23,874 bases of DNA from a virus. Positions 12,731 to 19,353 of this stretch are shown here, piece by piece. The first letter of the stretch is position 1. Every line of letters begins with the position of its first letter. Where the stretch lies: the IMG/VR virus record IMGVR_UViG_3300010370_000241, positions 1-23,874 of that record, one strand, 5' to 3'. A program made the position numbers and the translations under genes. The notes under the pieces are model-generated. The model was given only the letters and a program-made list of their open reading frames with translations. It did not search any database and was not told where the DNA came from.

Positions 12731-12743
12731 AGGGACTTACCCT
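12731..12743. promoter_or_regulatory. Operator-like dyad AGGGACTTACCCT between divergent genes
   Basis: The arms AGGG and CCCT are separated by five bases. This is one of a family of sites with the same arms found at 16751, 16775, 17130-17219 and 17568. Here a single site lies between the divergent recombination and cro promoters: 23 bases before the plus-strand -10 and 32 bases before the minus-strand -10. That geometry would allow one bound protein to act on both. Confidence 0.6.
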
Positions 12744-12767: not shown

Positions 12768-12780
12768 TACACTGTACGGA
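12768..12780 (+). promoter_or_regulatory. cro promoter -10 with ATG at predicted +1
   Basis: TACACT at 12768-12773 places the expected transcription start exactly on the A of the cro ATG at 12780. CCCTA of the upstream dyad ends 23 bases before TACACT. No convincing -35 hexamer is present, so the dyad-binding protein may supply that contact. The sequence GTACACTGTAC over the start is a short imperfect palindrome that could be a Cro operator. Confidence 0.5.
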
Positions 12781-12938
12781 TGACCAAAGAAGAGGCGATC
12801 AAACGGGCGGGTTCTCAAGCTGCACTGGCTCGGATACTGGGCGTGTCCAGGGGCGCAGTGAATCAGTGGAAGCAGATGCCACAGGGCCGCGTCTATCAGC
12901 TGATGGTCATCAAACCCGAGTGGTTTGTAGGGGCTTGA
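12780..12938 (+). CDS. Cro-like repressor, 52 aa
   Basis: A 52-residue protein consisting almost entirely of one helix-turn-helix of the Cro/YdaS type: GSQAALARILGVSRGAVNQW at residues 11-30, then a short strand and VIKPEWF. It would bind operators in the divergent control region in front of it. The ATG at 12780 was chosen over an in-frame GTG at 12756, which lies inside the promoter; there is no ribosome site and the ATG coincides with the predicted transcription start, so the mRNA should be leaderless. A partner CI-type repressor is not visible in the window. The stop codon overlaps a TTGACA element for the candidate RNA downstream. Confidence 0.8.
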   Translation: MTKEEAIKRAGSQAALARILGVSRGAVNQWKQMPQGRVYQLMVIKPEWFVGA

Positions 12939-13353: not shown

Positions 13354-13725
13354 ATGACTGAAAGGAAATCAATGTTTGAGAGTGGATTCGACAGATTCTG
13401 GGCAGCATGGCCAAAATCATTCAGAAAAGGCGGCAAAGCAGCCTGCCTAGCAAAGTGGAAGAAGACCTATTGTGAGACGTGTGCAGATCAGATCATCAAG
13501 CACGTTGAGTGGATGAAAACAACCGATCAGTGGCGAAAAGACAACGGTGCATTCATTCCAGCACCACTTGTCTACCTGAACCAGCAGCGTTGGGATGGGG
13601 CAGAGATTCCAGAAATCAAAAAGCCGCTTACTATGGAGCAAGAGTACCAGCAGCGTATTGCCAACACAGTCCCGATGCCTGACCACATCCGGGAGCGGCT
13701 GGCTCAGATCAGGCGAGGCGTATGA
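13354..13725 (+). CDS. Replication-protein-like C-terminal domain, stand-alone (123 aa)
   Basis: A 123-residue protein with the pattern FDRFWAAWPKSFRKGGKAAC (about 12-31), HVEWMKTTDQWRKDNGAFIP (about 51-70) and PLVYLNQQRWDGAEI. This is the common C-terminal region of phage replication (O-like) and primosomal DnaT-like proteins, here without the usual N-terminal DNA-binding half. It may help load the helicase. ATG 13354 has GGGG five bases upstream; an alternative ATG at 13372 has an equally good AAGGAA site and would remove the first six residues. The stop overlaps the next ATG (ATGA). Confidence 0.65.
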   Translation: MTERKSMFESGFDRFWAAWPKSFRKGGKAACLAKWKKTYCETCADQIIKHVEWMKTTDQWRKDNGAFIPAPLVYLNQQRWDGAEIPEIKKPLTMEQEYQQRIANTVPMPDHIRERLAQIRRGV

Positions 13726-16721: not shown

Positions 16722-16754
16722 ATTGTATAGGAATCTGAACACCAGGGAATAGGG
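16722..16754 (-). promoter_or_regulatory. Promoter of second minus operon (dyad-22-TACAAT)
   Basis: On the minus strand the dyad AGGGTTTGTCCCT (16763-16751) and its following A are 22 bases before TACAAT (16727-16722). The 12-base string TTCCTATACAAT (16733-16722) is identical to that of the terS promoter at 17598-17609, and CCCTATTC follows both dyads. No good -35 hexamer is present. Confidence 0.6.
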
Positions 16755-16786
16755 ACAAACCCTAATAGACCACTAGGGGAAACCCT
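16751..16786. promoter_or_regulatory. Two operator-like dyads between divergent genes
   Basis: AGGGACAAACCCT (16751-16763) and AGGGGAAACCCT (16775-16786), start to start 24 bases. The first is placed for the minus-strand promoter. The second lies 22 bases before AACAAT (16810-16815) on the plus strand, which could be the -10 of the regulator-like gene at 16830. A TTGCTT-17-TATAGG pair (16703-16731) on the plus strand is an alternative, more distant promoter. Confidence 0.55.
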
Positions 16787-16829: not shown

Positions 16830-17084
16830 ATGGCTAGACCATGCCGTCAGGATACTGTCAATTTCACCCGCGTGCTGACCGACGAACAACGCGCAATCCT
16901 ACTGGCAGCAGGCGATGGAGACCTCACTGTAGGATTCAATGAGTGCCTGTCGCTGTGGGTATCGATCAACCCCATCAAGGCCAGTTTCTGTGGCAACGTT
17001 TCACGTGAAACACCCAGACCCAGGATGCACCGCAAGACCCCCAAGGAAGCACCATCCTCGTCACCCACCCTCGCTGATTCATAG
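16830..17084 (+). CDS. Small regulator-like protein, 84 aa, carrying a parS-like site
   Basis: An 84-residue protein. Residues 1-45 (MARPCRQDTVNFTRVLTDEQ, then RAILLAAGDGDLTVGFNECL) read as a basic start, a strand and two helices, the order of ribbon-helix-helix-like phage regulators. The last 35 residues are basic, Pro/Ser-rich and probably disordered. It is a single gene between two operator-like dyads and the repeat array, so it is a candidate to bind those sites. GAGGA lies just upstream of the ATG. The codons for NVSRET contain a near-perfect parS palindrome. The assignment as DNA-binding is tentative. Confidence 0.6.
   Translation: MARPCRQDTVNFTRVLTDEQRAILLAAGDGDLTVGFNECLSLWVSINPIKASFCGNVSRETPRPRMHRKTPKEAPSSSPTLADS
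16997..17012. promoter_or_regulatory. parS-like ParB-binding palindrome
   Basis: CGTTTCACGTGAAACA matches the bacterial chromosomal parS consensus TGTTNCACGTGAAACA at every defined position except the first T. The central 14 bases GTTTCACGTGAAAC are a perfect palindrome. A half-site GTGAAACA follows at 17085-17092. It lies inside the small regulator-like gene. No ParB gene is in the window, so the host protein would be the reader. Binding is not shown, only sequence identity. Confidence 0.6.
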
Positions 17085-17129
17085 GTGAAACAATGCATCC
17101 TCCGCATAACCTCATGCGTCTGGCGTATC

Positions 17130-17219
17130 AGGGTTTACCCTACTATCGTTAACCCTATTAGTGTTTACCCTATCAGTAGAAACCCTATGAGGGTTTACCC
17201 TGTGCGGGTTTGCCAGGAT
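17130..17219. repeat. Six tandem 15-bp repeats (iteron-like array)
   Basis: Units begin at 17130, 17145, 17160, 17175, 17190 and 17205 with exact 15-base spacing. Units 1 and 5 carry AGGGTTTACCCT and unit 3 AGTGTTTACCCT. Units 2 and 4 keep mainly the AACCCTAT half, and unit 6 has CGGGTTTGCC. The unit contains the same dyad found alone at the promoters. Arrays of this kind serve as initiator-binding iterons, partition sites or multi-copy operators; which applies here is not known. Confidence 0.75.
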
Positions 17220-17227
17220 TTGTGATA

Positions 17228-17249
17228 GGGGGGGGAGGGTCGGGGTGGG
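17228..17249 (+). other. G-quadruplex-type G-rich tract
   Basis: Runs of 8, 3, 4 and 3 guanines are separated by one or two bases (A, TC, T), which meets the usual G-quadruplex rule with very short loops. It begins eight bases after the repeat array. The complementary strand is equally C-rich. The pattern is seen directly; folding is inferred. Confidence 0.6.
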
Positions 17250-17567
17250 TTGTAGAAATTTTGTGGTGCCCCACTCCCTCCGAAAAAGTGGATTTAGCCT
17301 AACAGCGTGGCGACAACGCCTGCTAAAAAAAGAGAGGAGAAAGAGTAGAGACCCGTAGATGGGTAGTCCTCTTGAAGAGGGAGCCTCTCGTTTATCTAGA
17401 CTATGCCTGATGGCACCTGAGTTACGTTGCCCCGTTCACCTGACCTGCGGTGTCTCACGACATTGGCAGGGGGCTACTAGAAACTCACCCAGTTCGTCAC
17501 GTTTATCCTACTTGGTCGGCTCAACCGCATAGAGGGGTGGGTCATGCCCCCGTGAACTCACTATATC

Positions 17568-17609
17568 ATGGTTTACCCTATTCTCGTAAACGCTAGTTTC
17601 CTATACAAT
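17568..17609 (+). promoter_or_regulatory. terS promoter (dyad-23-TACAAT), ATG at +1
   Basis: ATGGTTTACCCT (17568-17579) is a degenerate left arm plus the conserved right half of the shared dyad. After CCCTA there are 23 bases to TACAAT (17604-17609, within TATACAAT). The ATG of the next gene begins six bases after the hexamer, so the start of transcription and of translation nearly coincide and no ribosome site is present. Confidence 0.6.
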
Positions 17610-17614
17610 GGCTT

Positions 17615-17917
17615 ATGGCTTACAGAACACCTGCTGTTTTACCCAAGACTGAGTACCAGCGGCTCAAAGAGCTAAAGAAGATGTTGGTCGAGTCTAAGGG
17701 CGAGGCTGTCGTCAAGAAGGTCATTGACATCGCCATGAACGACGACCACCCCCAACAGATGGTTGCACTTAAGATGTGCATGGAGAGGGCTTTGCCGGTC
17801 AGTCTGTTTGAGAAGACCAGCGCCCAGCGTAGTGCTGTCAATATCACCATCTCTGGCATCGGTGTCCAGGTTGGTGAAACTATAGAAGCCGAGGATGTGG
17901 AGCCAAAGTATGACTAA
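17615..17917 (+). CDS. Putative small terminase subunit, 100 aa
   Basis: A 100-residue protein directly upstream of the large terminase module. Residues 10-60 are helical (PKTEYQRLKELKKMLVESKG, then VVKKVIDIAMNDDHPQQMVA and LKMCMERALPVSLFEK), and the end has strands (AVNITISGIGVQVG) and an acidic tail. The pattern is often annotated as terminase small subunit or as an unknown protein in the same place. Such subunits bind the packaging start on DNA and hand it to TerL. There is no ribosome site; the ATG matches the predicted transcription start. The assignment rests on position and general pattern. Confidence 0.6.
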   Translation: MAYRTPAVLPKTEYQRLKELKKMLVESKGEAVVKKVIDIAMNDDHPQQMVALKMCMERALPVSLFEKTSAQRSAVNITISGIGVQVGETIEAEDVEPKYD

Positions 17918-18104
17918 TGAGGTGACTCGGTGGATGGTCACAGTTGAGCGTCCTACTTACTTAGAGAAAACCAGGACTTTGGTTGATCATCGTCATCTTG
18001 ATGAGTTTGTTGGCAAGCTAATGAAGCTATACAACTGGTCACAAAAAGACCGCATCACCATAGAGCCAACAGAAATCGCACCGTACATAGGCAACAATGA
18101 GTGA
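17910..18104 (+). CDS. Hypothetical protein between TerS and TerL, 64 aa
   Basis: A 64-residue protein starting at ATG 17910 behind a GGAG site and overlapping both neighbours by eight bases. It has a strand-rich start (MTNEVTRWMVTVERPTYLEK) and an amphipathic helix (LDEFVGKLMKLYNWS). No family is recognised. Close overlap with both genes suggests co-translation with the packaging genes. Confidence 0.65.
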   Translation: MTNEVTRWMVTVERPTYLEKTRTLVDHRHLDEFVGKLMKLYNWSQKDRITIEPTEIAPYIGNNE

Positions 18105-19353
18105 CCTGAACTTCTCACTACTGCCCTGGCAGCAAGAGGTCTACGCAGACCCTACCCGCTTTAAGGTGATTGCTGCTGGCCGTAGGTGTGGGAAGTCCAG
18201 GCTGGCCGCCACCATGCTGATCATCGAGGGGCTGCGGTGTCCCCAGGGTTCAGCGGTGCTGTACGTTAGTCCCACTATGGGACAGTCCCGCCAGATTGTA
18301 TGGGACTTGCTGCTTGAGCTTGGCAGGGAGGTGATCCAGACCTCCAACGTCAACAACCTAGACATTACCCTGATAAACGGGGCCAGAATCTACGTCCGTG
18401 GCTCTGACCGTCCTGACACCCTGCGAGGCGTGTCTCTGACGTTCGCGGTGCTTGACGAGGTTGCCGACATCAAACCCCAAGCCTGGGAGCAGGTTATCCG
18501 CGCTTCTCTATCCGACAAGAAGGGCAAGGCTATTTTCATTGGCACTCCAAAGGGCAGGAACTGGTTTCACGACCTGTGGAAGTTGGGCCAGGATGGAGAT
18601 GACAAAGATTGGAAGTCCTGGCACTTTACGACTAAAGACAACCCGCTGATAGATCCGGACGAGATCGAGTCTGCCAAGAAAACGCTGTCCAGCTTCGCTT
18701 TCAAGCAGGAATACATGGCCAGCTTCTCCAATGCTGGATCGGATGTCTTCAAGGAAGAGTGGATCAAATATGGCGAAGAACCGCCTTATGGCTCTTATTT
18801 TGTAGCTGTTGATCTGGCTGGCTTCGAGGAAGTGGCCAAACAGGCTGCAAACTCCAAAAAACGGCTAGATGAGTCGGCCATTGCGGTGGTCAAGGTCACG
18901 GATGAGGGCAAATGGTTCGTCCAGGAGATCGACCACGGCAGGTGGGATATCCGGGAAACGGCCACTAAGATTCTGACCAAGATGCGGGATTACCGGCCAT
19001 TGAGTGTCGGAATCGAGCGTGGGGCGCTAAAGAACGCGGTTTTGCCGTATTTGAGCGATCTCATGAGGAAAAACAACGTGTTTTCGCACATCGTTGATTT
19101 AACTCACGGGAATCGCAAGAAAACGGATAGAATCGTGTGGGCATTGCAAGGCCGGTTTGAACACGGCAGAATAGTGCTAAACAGCGAAGAGAATTGGGAC
19201 GACTTTGTTGACCAACTTCTGATGTTTCCCGCGCAAGGGGTACACGATGATCTGCCAGATGCACTCAGCTATATCGACCAGTTGGCTGTGACAAGCTACT
19301 TTGAAGATGCTGATGATGGCTGGGAGCCGATTGACGTTATTTCTGGTGTTTAA
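18097..19353 (+). CDS. terL: Terminase large subunit (ATPase and nuclease)
   Basis: A 418-residue packaging motor protein. ATPase part: Walker A AAGRRCGKS (26-34), Walker B FAVLDE (116-121) and coupling motif GTPKG (149-153). Nuclease part (RNase H-like): Asp239 in VAVDLAG, Glu306 in VGIERG, and Asp383/Asp384/Asp387 in HDDLPDALSY. The length is on the short side but complete for the family. It cuts concatemeric DNA and drives it through the portal. It overlaps the gene upstream by eight bases. A GGAG site and 15 bases separate it from the next gene. Confidence 0.95.
   Translation: MSDLNFSLLPWQQEVYADPTRFKVIAAGRRCGKSRLAATMLIIEGLRCPQGSAVLYVSPTMGQSRQIVWDLLLELGREVIQTSNVNNLDITLINGARIYVRGSDRPDTLRGVSLTFAVLDEVADIKPQAWEQVIRASLSDKKGKAIFIGTPKGRNWFHDLWKLGQDGDDKDWKSWHFTTKDNPLIDPDEIESAKKTLSSFAFKQEYMASFSNAGSDVFKEEWIKYGEEPPYGSYFVAVDLAGFEEVAKQAANSKKRLDESAIAVVKVTDEGKWFVQEIDHGRWDIRETATKILTKMRDYRPLSVGIERGALKNAVLPYLSDLMRKNNVFSHIVDLTHGNRKKTDRIVWALQGRFEHGRIVLNSEENWDDFVDQLLMFPAQGVHDDLPDALSYIDQLAVTSYFEDADDGWEPIDVISGV

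Follow-up and report, generated by a model that had tools for sequence, protein, structure and literature searches.

A phased 15-bp dyad array ahead of the terminase genes of an uncultured phage, a candidate platform for a host DNA-binding protein

Which protein would read a tandem array of short dyads in the non-coding DNA ahead of a phage's terminase genes, and to what effect? The question is raised by a viral DNA stretch of 23,874 nucleotides (the window, which means this whole stretch throughout), in which a preliminary description had seen six 15-base repeats built from a promoter dyad. An origin with iterons, a multi-site operator and a packaging or partition site had been offered there as candidate functions. 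The region has no DNA match to sequenced phages. The large terminase subunit (TerL) is less than 60% identical to that of any named phage and has a single match among genomes, on a marine MAG contig, and the capsid protein gives distant matches to cyanopodovirus-like and actinophage capsids. Comparisons were made within a set of relatives, for which a TerL search yielded 80 related viral contigs and two DNA pattern scans added further ones. The best explanation sees in the array a multi-site platform for one, probably host-encoded, DNA-binding protein, placed inside a hub at which host factors would dock. Judged from sequence comparison, the chance that this is correct is close to even.

The array in the window and in its relatives

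The existence of the array in the window is confirmed. Its units start at 17126, 17141, 17156, 17171, 17186 and 17201 and read TATCAGGGTTTACCC, TACTATCGTTAACCC and TATTAGTGTTTACCC, followed by TATCAGTAGAAACCC, TATGAGGGTTTACCC and a weak sixth unit, TGTGCGGGTTTGCCA; the features of the locus are collected in Table 1. Self-identity amounts to 0.68, 0.65 and 0.64 at lags of 15, 30 and 45 bp, compared to 0.09-0.34 at the other lags tested. The best 15-bp lag match of the whole window is located here, at 17137 (0.717 over 60 positions), and the corresponding maxima of 30 Markov shuffles had a mean of 0.529 and a largest value of 0.583. These data bear out the exact 15-base spacing described previously. 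The array was also said to be the only one of its kind, which holds for non-coding DNA: no second non-coding array was found elsewhere in the 23,874 nt, and the one further tract of strong periodicity, at about 22000, is made up of a 9-bp repeat within a coding gene.

Complete dyads in units 1, 3 and 5 had been reported to alternate with half-kept units 2 and 4. Units 1 and 5 are indeed complete and the right half is present at 17145 and 17175, whereas unit 3 deviates from the full dyad by one mismatch. The 30-base super-period that was deduced from this pattern is not significant in the window alone (permutation p = 0.71 with six units and 0.083 with five), but an A-B-A-B alternation occurs in several relatives, namely L137 (seven units), L020 (five units), L086 and L103, and supports it at the family level. 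One of the alternating types carries the full dyad (CAGGGTTTACCC...), and the other, a half unit, is composed of TATCG or GCTCG, then TTTACCC. Close relatives carry the array at the same location with three to seven units, spaced by 15 bp in 59 cases and by 30 bp in 6. A loss of the array or of its phasing in close relatives, which the preliminary description had named as the outcome that would speak against it, was looked for, and the register proved to be retained.

Table 1. Features of the array locus and of related sites, by position in the window
Feature	Position	Strand	Remarks
Dyad AGGGACTTACCCT	12731..12743	.	AGGG-N5-CCCT; between divergent cro-like and sak-like genes
cro-like gene	12780..12938	+	P22_Cro / YdaS family HTH; candidate phage-encoded dyad binder
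-10 box TACAAT	16722-16727	-	leftward promoter
Dyad AGGGACAAACCCT (+ strand reading)	16751..16763	-	leftward promoter; AGGG-N5-CCCT
Dyad AGGGTTTCCCCT (minus strand reading)	16775..16786	-	second leftward-promoter dyad
Small ORF, family-wide	16830..17084	+	84 aa, MARP...; extended segment-helix-helix model
parS-like site CGTTTCACGTGAAACA	16997..17012	.	one mismatch to TGTTTCACGTGAAACA; inside 3' part of small ORF
ATGC-N7-GCAT dyad ATGCATCCTCCGCAT	17093..17107	.	between parS and array; seen directly, recurs in relatives
ATGC-N7-GCAT copy ATGCGTCTGGCGTAT	17114-17128		second copy, imperfect
15-bp tandem array	17126..17215	+	six units, consensus TATNAGGGTTTACCC; right half-site GTTTACCCTA most constant
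Unit 1, full dyad AGGGTTTACCCT	17130..17141	.	
Unit 2, half unit ATCGTTAACCCT	17145..17156	.	right half only; B-type unit, recurs in relatives
Unit 3, near-full dyad AGTGTTTACCCT	17160..17171	.	one mismatch
Unit 4, half unit AGTAGAAACCCT	17175..17186	.	right half only
Unit 5, full dyad AGGGTTTACCCT	17190..17201	.	
G-run GGGGGGGGAGGG	17228..17239	+	upstream of terminase genes in nearly all relatives
Conserved structured RNA	17350..17545 (approximate ends)	+	array-to-terS interval; compensatory changes
Dyad ATGGTTTACCCT	17568..17579	+	N4 version; ahead of terminase genes/terS
Probable terminase small subunit (terS)	17615..17917	+	by position; no family match
Terminase large subunit (terL)	18097..19353	+	Pfam E 4e-16

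The promoter dyad and its possible phage regulator

The dyad is not confined to the array. With up to three mismatches, AGGGTTTACCCT occurs 27 times in the window against 13.0 expected occurrences, a number that was reached by none of 100 shuffles. The same dyad is found at promoters, at a fixed distance from the -10 box, in agreement with the earlier proposal that the array was built from a promoter dyad. Measured from CCCTA to TACAAT across loci, this distance is 22 nt in nine distinct sequences without a visible -35 box; in 13 further distinct sequences, ten of which have a recognised -35, it is 32-33 nt. The difference corresponds to about one helical turn, so that the face of the DNA is retained, and the dyad centres come to lie near -42 and -52, a placement that would be expected of an activator touching RNA polymerase. 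The same geometry is present in the array-less phages L061, L085 and L134, which indicates that the array was probably derived from the promoter site.

Ahead of terS, the distance is 23 nt in six distinct sequences, the window included, where TACAAT is located at 17604-17609 and no -35 box is seen. Confidence in this promoter is lower than in the leftward ones, because its predicted start site coincides with the start codon (leaderless). The 350 bases that had been given as the distance between array and terminase promoter apply to the interval from the array end to the dyad at 17568 (about 350 bp), not to the -10 box at 17604. The word terminase itself is sound for TerL, while the small subunit is assigned by position.

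Among the functions that had been considered at the outset, a multi-site operator fits best, since the same dyad occupies fixed promoter positions. The array would work like such an operator; we do not assign it to the Cro operators, the centromeres or the iteron origins. One way to account for it is that the array serves the phage's own Cro-like repressor or activator and tunes or sinks this regulator of the early, cro/sak and late promoters. The dyad is found at the regulator's own promoter, in the cro/sak divergent region, as well as at the leftward promoter and ahead of terS. It also adjoins the cro genes of the diverged phages L014, L016, L079 and G007, and cro and promoter dyads occur together in four of four near-complete genomes and are both missing in two of two. 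Inverted-repeat operators at divergent early promoters beside a cro-like gene are a likeness to the P22/lambda-type Cro operators, from which the phage differs by a six-unit 15-bp tandem array away from the promoter and by a dyad position and a missing -35 that look activator-like. Against a Cro-like binder, G005 retains the dyad despite a different Cro recognition helix, the array has no promoter-like -10 at the conserved spacing, and the same array accompanies parS sites in an unrelated phage. A Cro-like operator is a possible explanation of the array, though a rather unlikely one.

A variable hub with sites for host proteins

The favoured reading, a platform for a host protein, takes its main evidence from the surroundings of the array. 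In nearly all relatives, the terminase genes are preceded by a G-run of the form G7-9AGGG, then a C-rich tract and GAAAAAG. The variable segment upstream of this G-run is called the hub here; the G-run was used to define hubs, some of which are partial owing to assembly breaks. The hub follows the family-wide small ORF, and its sequence varies from phage to phage. The protein family of the small ORF ranges from 66 to 95 aa among relatives and is possibly of the ribbon-helix-helix type according to its model; no family or fold match was obtained with Foldseek or VIA-align. The 3' part of the gene is overlapped by parS or Fur boxes.

In the clade of the window, the hub consists of parS plus the 15-bp array, whereas other hubs contain DnaA-box arrays, the XerD half-site A[CT]TTAACATAA, SlmA-like boxes, GC-rich repeats or Fur-like boxes, the last where the small ORF ends. 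The site labels follow what we take to be the Fur, SlmA, XerD, DnaA and parS consensus sequences. Because the hubs share a common descent, the counts given here are not independent events. Of 61 distinct hubs, 19 contain parS (up to one mismatch), 9 contain Fur boxes and 13 the XerD arm; a further 554 kb of phage DNA outside the hubs contains none of the three. The DnaA box TTATCCACA is 66-fold denser in hubs than in other phage DNA, and SlmA-like boxes (up to one mismatch) number 16 in nine hubs versus two in 570 kb. Reversed-motif controls gave no matches in the 61 hubs. Near-complete genomes have their sole close match to parS or Fur, or every exact DnaA box, within the hub. Motif classes and orientations vary between hub lineages. 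The motifs of matS, Noc, KOPS, Chi and CRP showed no convincing enrichment particular to hubs. LexA-like CTGT-N8-ACAG sites were observed in the hubs of L067 and L084 (about 17-fold denser in hubs, five versus five hits). In the hubs of L013, L023 and L112, TGTTGTATTTACGCAACA dyads stand in for part of the 15-bp array.

The array begins 114 bp downstream of the parS-like site of the window. Mean heterozygosity of this site is 0.056, whereas that of the flanking DNA is 0.47-0.48, and its changes are almost confined to the degenerate positions of parS, even at the cost of a protein change. The partition site that had been listed among the candidates has a counterpart in a conserved, near-consensus parS next to the array, but the array itself is not parS, and 14 long records yielded neither a ParB gene nor an integrase. 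A ParABS role of the site would call for the ParB of the host. The exact or one-mismatch 16-bp site and its strong site-specific conservation are shared with the chromosomal parS/ParB-CTP centromere; the single copy, the location beside the terminase genes and the lack of a detected ParB in these records are differences. Exact parS sites were also seen in many other viral contigs, among the matches listed, and the uncultured viral contigs L174, L200 and L209 carry three to five of them in a cluster, which adjoins G-rich runs in L174 and L200.

The combination recurs outside the family. A scan for 15-bp phased pairs found 37 contigs, and L280, L283, L290, L303 and L306 carry arrays of GCTCGTTTACCCTAT-like units, 8-11 in number, together with four or five parS. 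Array and parS lie directly ahead of terL in L280 and L290. The TerL of L280 is 21% identical to that of the window over the C-terminal half and its capsid belongs to another family; a GP88-type gene is common to the window and these contigs. It is this recurrence with parS, and the company of parS, DnaA, Fur, XerD and SlmA sites, that points to a host-encoded binder of the array.

Under the platform reading, a sequence-specific, probably dimeric protein would bind multiple copies of the dyad TTAGGG-N4/5-CCCTAA, of which the half GTTTACCCTA is the most constant. The dyad of the phage promoters would have been expanded in whole 15-bp units within the hub, whose common property would be sites for host DNA-binding proteins (ParB here; Fur, DnaA, XerD or SlmA-like elsewhere). 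Most likely, the array would recruit or titrate its host protein near the place where packaging begins. Late in infection, the many genome copies could gather that protein, and the bound proteins might also, or instead, mark or insulate the terminase region.

It is conceivable, as a tentative extension to which we give somewhat less than even weight, that several lineages possess an exchangeable docking hub upstream of the terminase genes for ParB, DnaA, XerCD, SlmA, Fur and the binder of the array, which recruits or titrates these proteins and couples packaging or the positioning of phage DNA to the takeover of the host cell cycle. Clustered sites for host cell-cycle proteins are known from datA-like DnaA-titrating clusters and SlmA-site arrays; the phage locus differs in using several host proteins alternatively, and titration is only proposed here. 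No published account of such a hub was found in the open-access literature. If the proposal is correct, phages without an integrase carry, beside their packaging genes, cis-acting landing sites for host proteins of segregation, replication initiation and division control, and the choice of protein is swapped among close relatives. This would be a gene-free means of taking over or blocking the host cell cycle, and the hub sequence might serve as a host-range marker for uncultured phages.

Origin, packaging and the interval before terS

The same sites can be read as parts of a replication origin with iterons, in which the DnaA boxes of relatives play the same role and the parS and XerD sites serve plasmid-like maintenance. 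Plasmid origins are usually neighboured by parS, an XerD arm and DnaA boxes. Phased direct repeats of 15 bp are present as in lambda ori or plasmid oriV, and the DnaA-box arrays that relatives have in this position keep the candidate alive. However, an AT-rich hub is seen in G005 but neither in the window nor in G004, no initiator gene is adjacent, an O-like C-terminal domain at 13354 being all that was found, and GC skew tracks net drift and gene direction without a clear switch. For want of an AT-rich unwinding element, an adjacent cognate initiator and an informative skew, the iteron origin suggested earlier is not supported in the window. Moreover, G002 has different early genes at that place and yet the same hub layout, and repeat identity is exchangeable between close relatives, unlike in iteron origins. 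An origin is on balance distinctly improbable.

By position, a packaging role of the locus is possible, and the G-run is possibly related to packaging. The repeats would then be sites for the small terminase subunit next to a cos or pac cut at the G-run. The near-universal G-run, the position of the array immediately ahead of the terminase genes and the array preceding terL in the unrelated phage agree with this assumption. Recognition repeats that are conserved together with the terminase were not found: unrelated sequences replace the repeats in phages with about 88-90% identical TerL, an exchange that weakens recognition by the small subunit. In addition, the dyad recurs at promoters distant from the terminase and the ends of the fragmentary contigs show no clear terminus, which leaves packaging sites a very slim chance. 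That the array is a non-functional minisatellite, grown through slippage of one operator, would agree with the differing unit numbers among relatives but is hardly credible in view of the alternating A and B units, the exact 15-bp register despite divergent spacers and the joint recurrence of array and parS in an unrelated phage.

The interval between array and terS harbours a further conserved element, a structured RNA of about 200 nt that is present in the parS/array clade. It comprises 57 pairs, with 98% of the alignment cells paired; nine of the pairs show compensatory changes, and covariation is 0.174 versus 0.03-0.05 for slid controls. Rfam gave no credible match to this RNA in the window and none in four relatives. 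In L018, L020 and L060, a different insertion of about 1 kb replaces the RNA element between hub and terS; inspection by eye revealed an apparent HNH-type endonuclease gene in this insertion, on the opposite strand.
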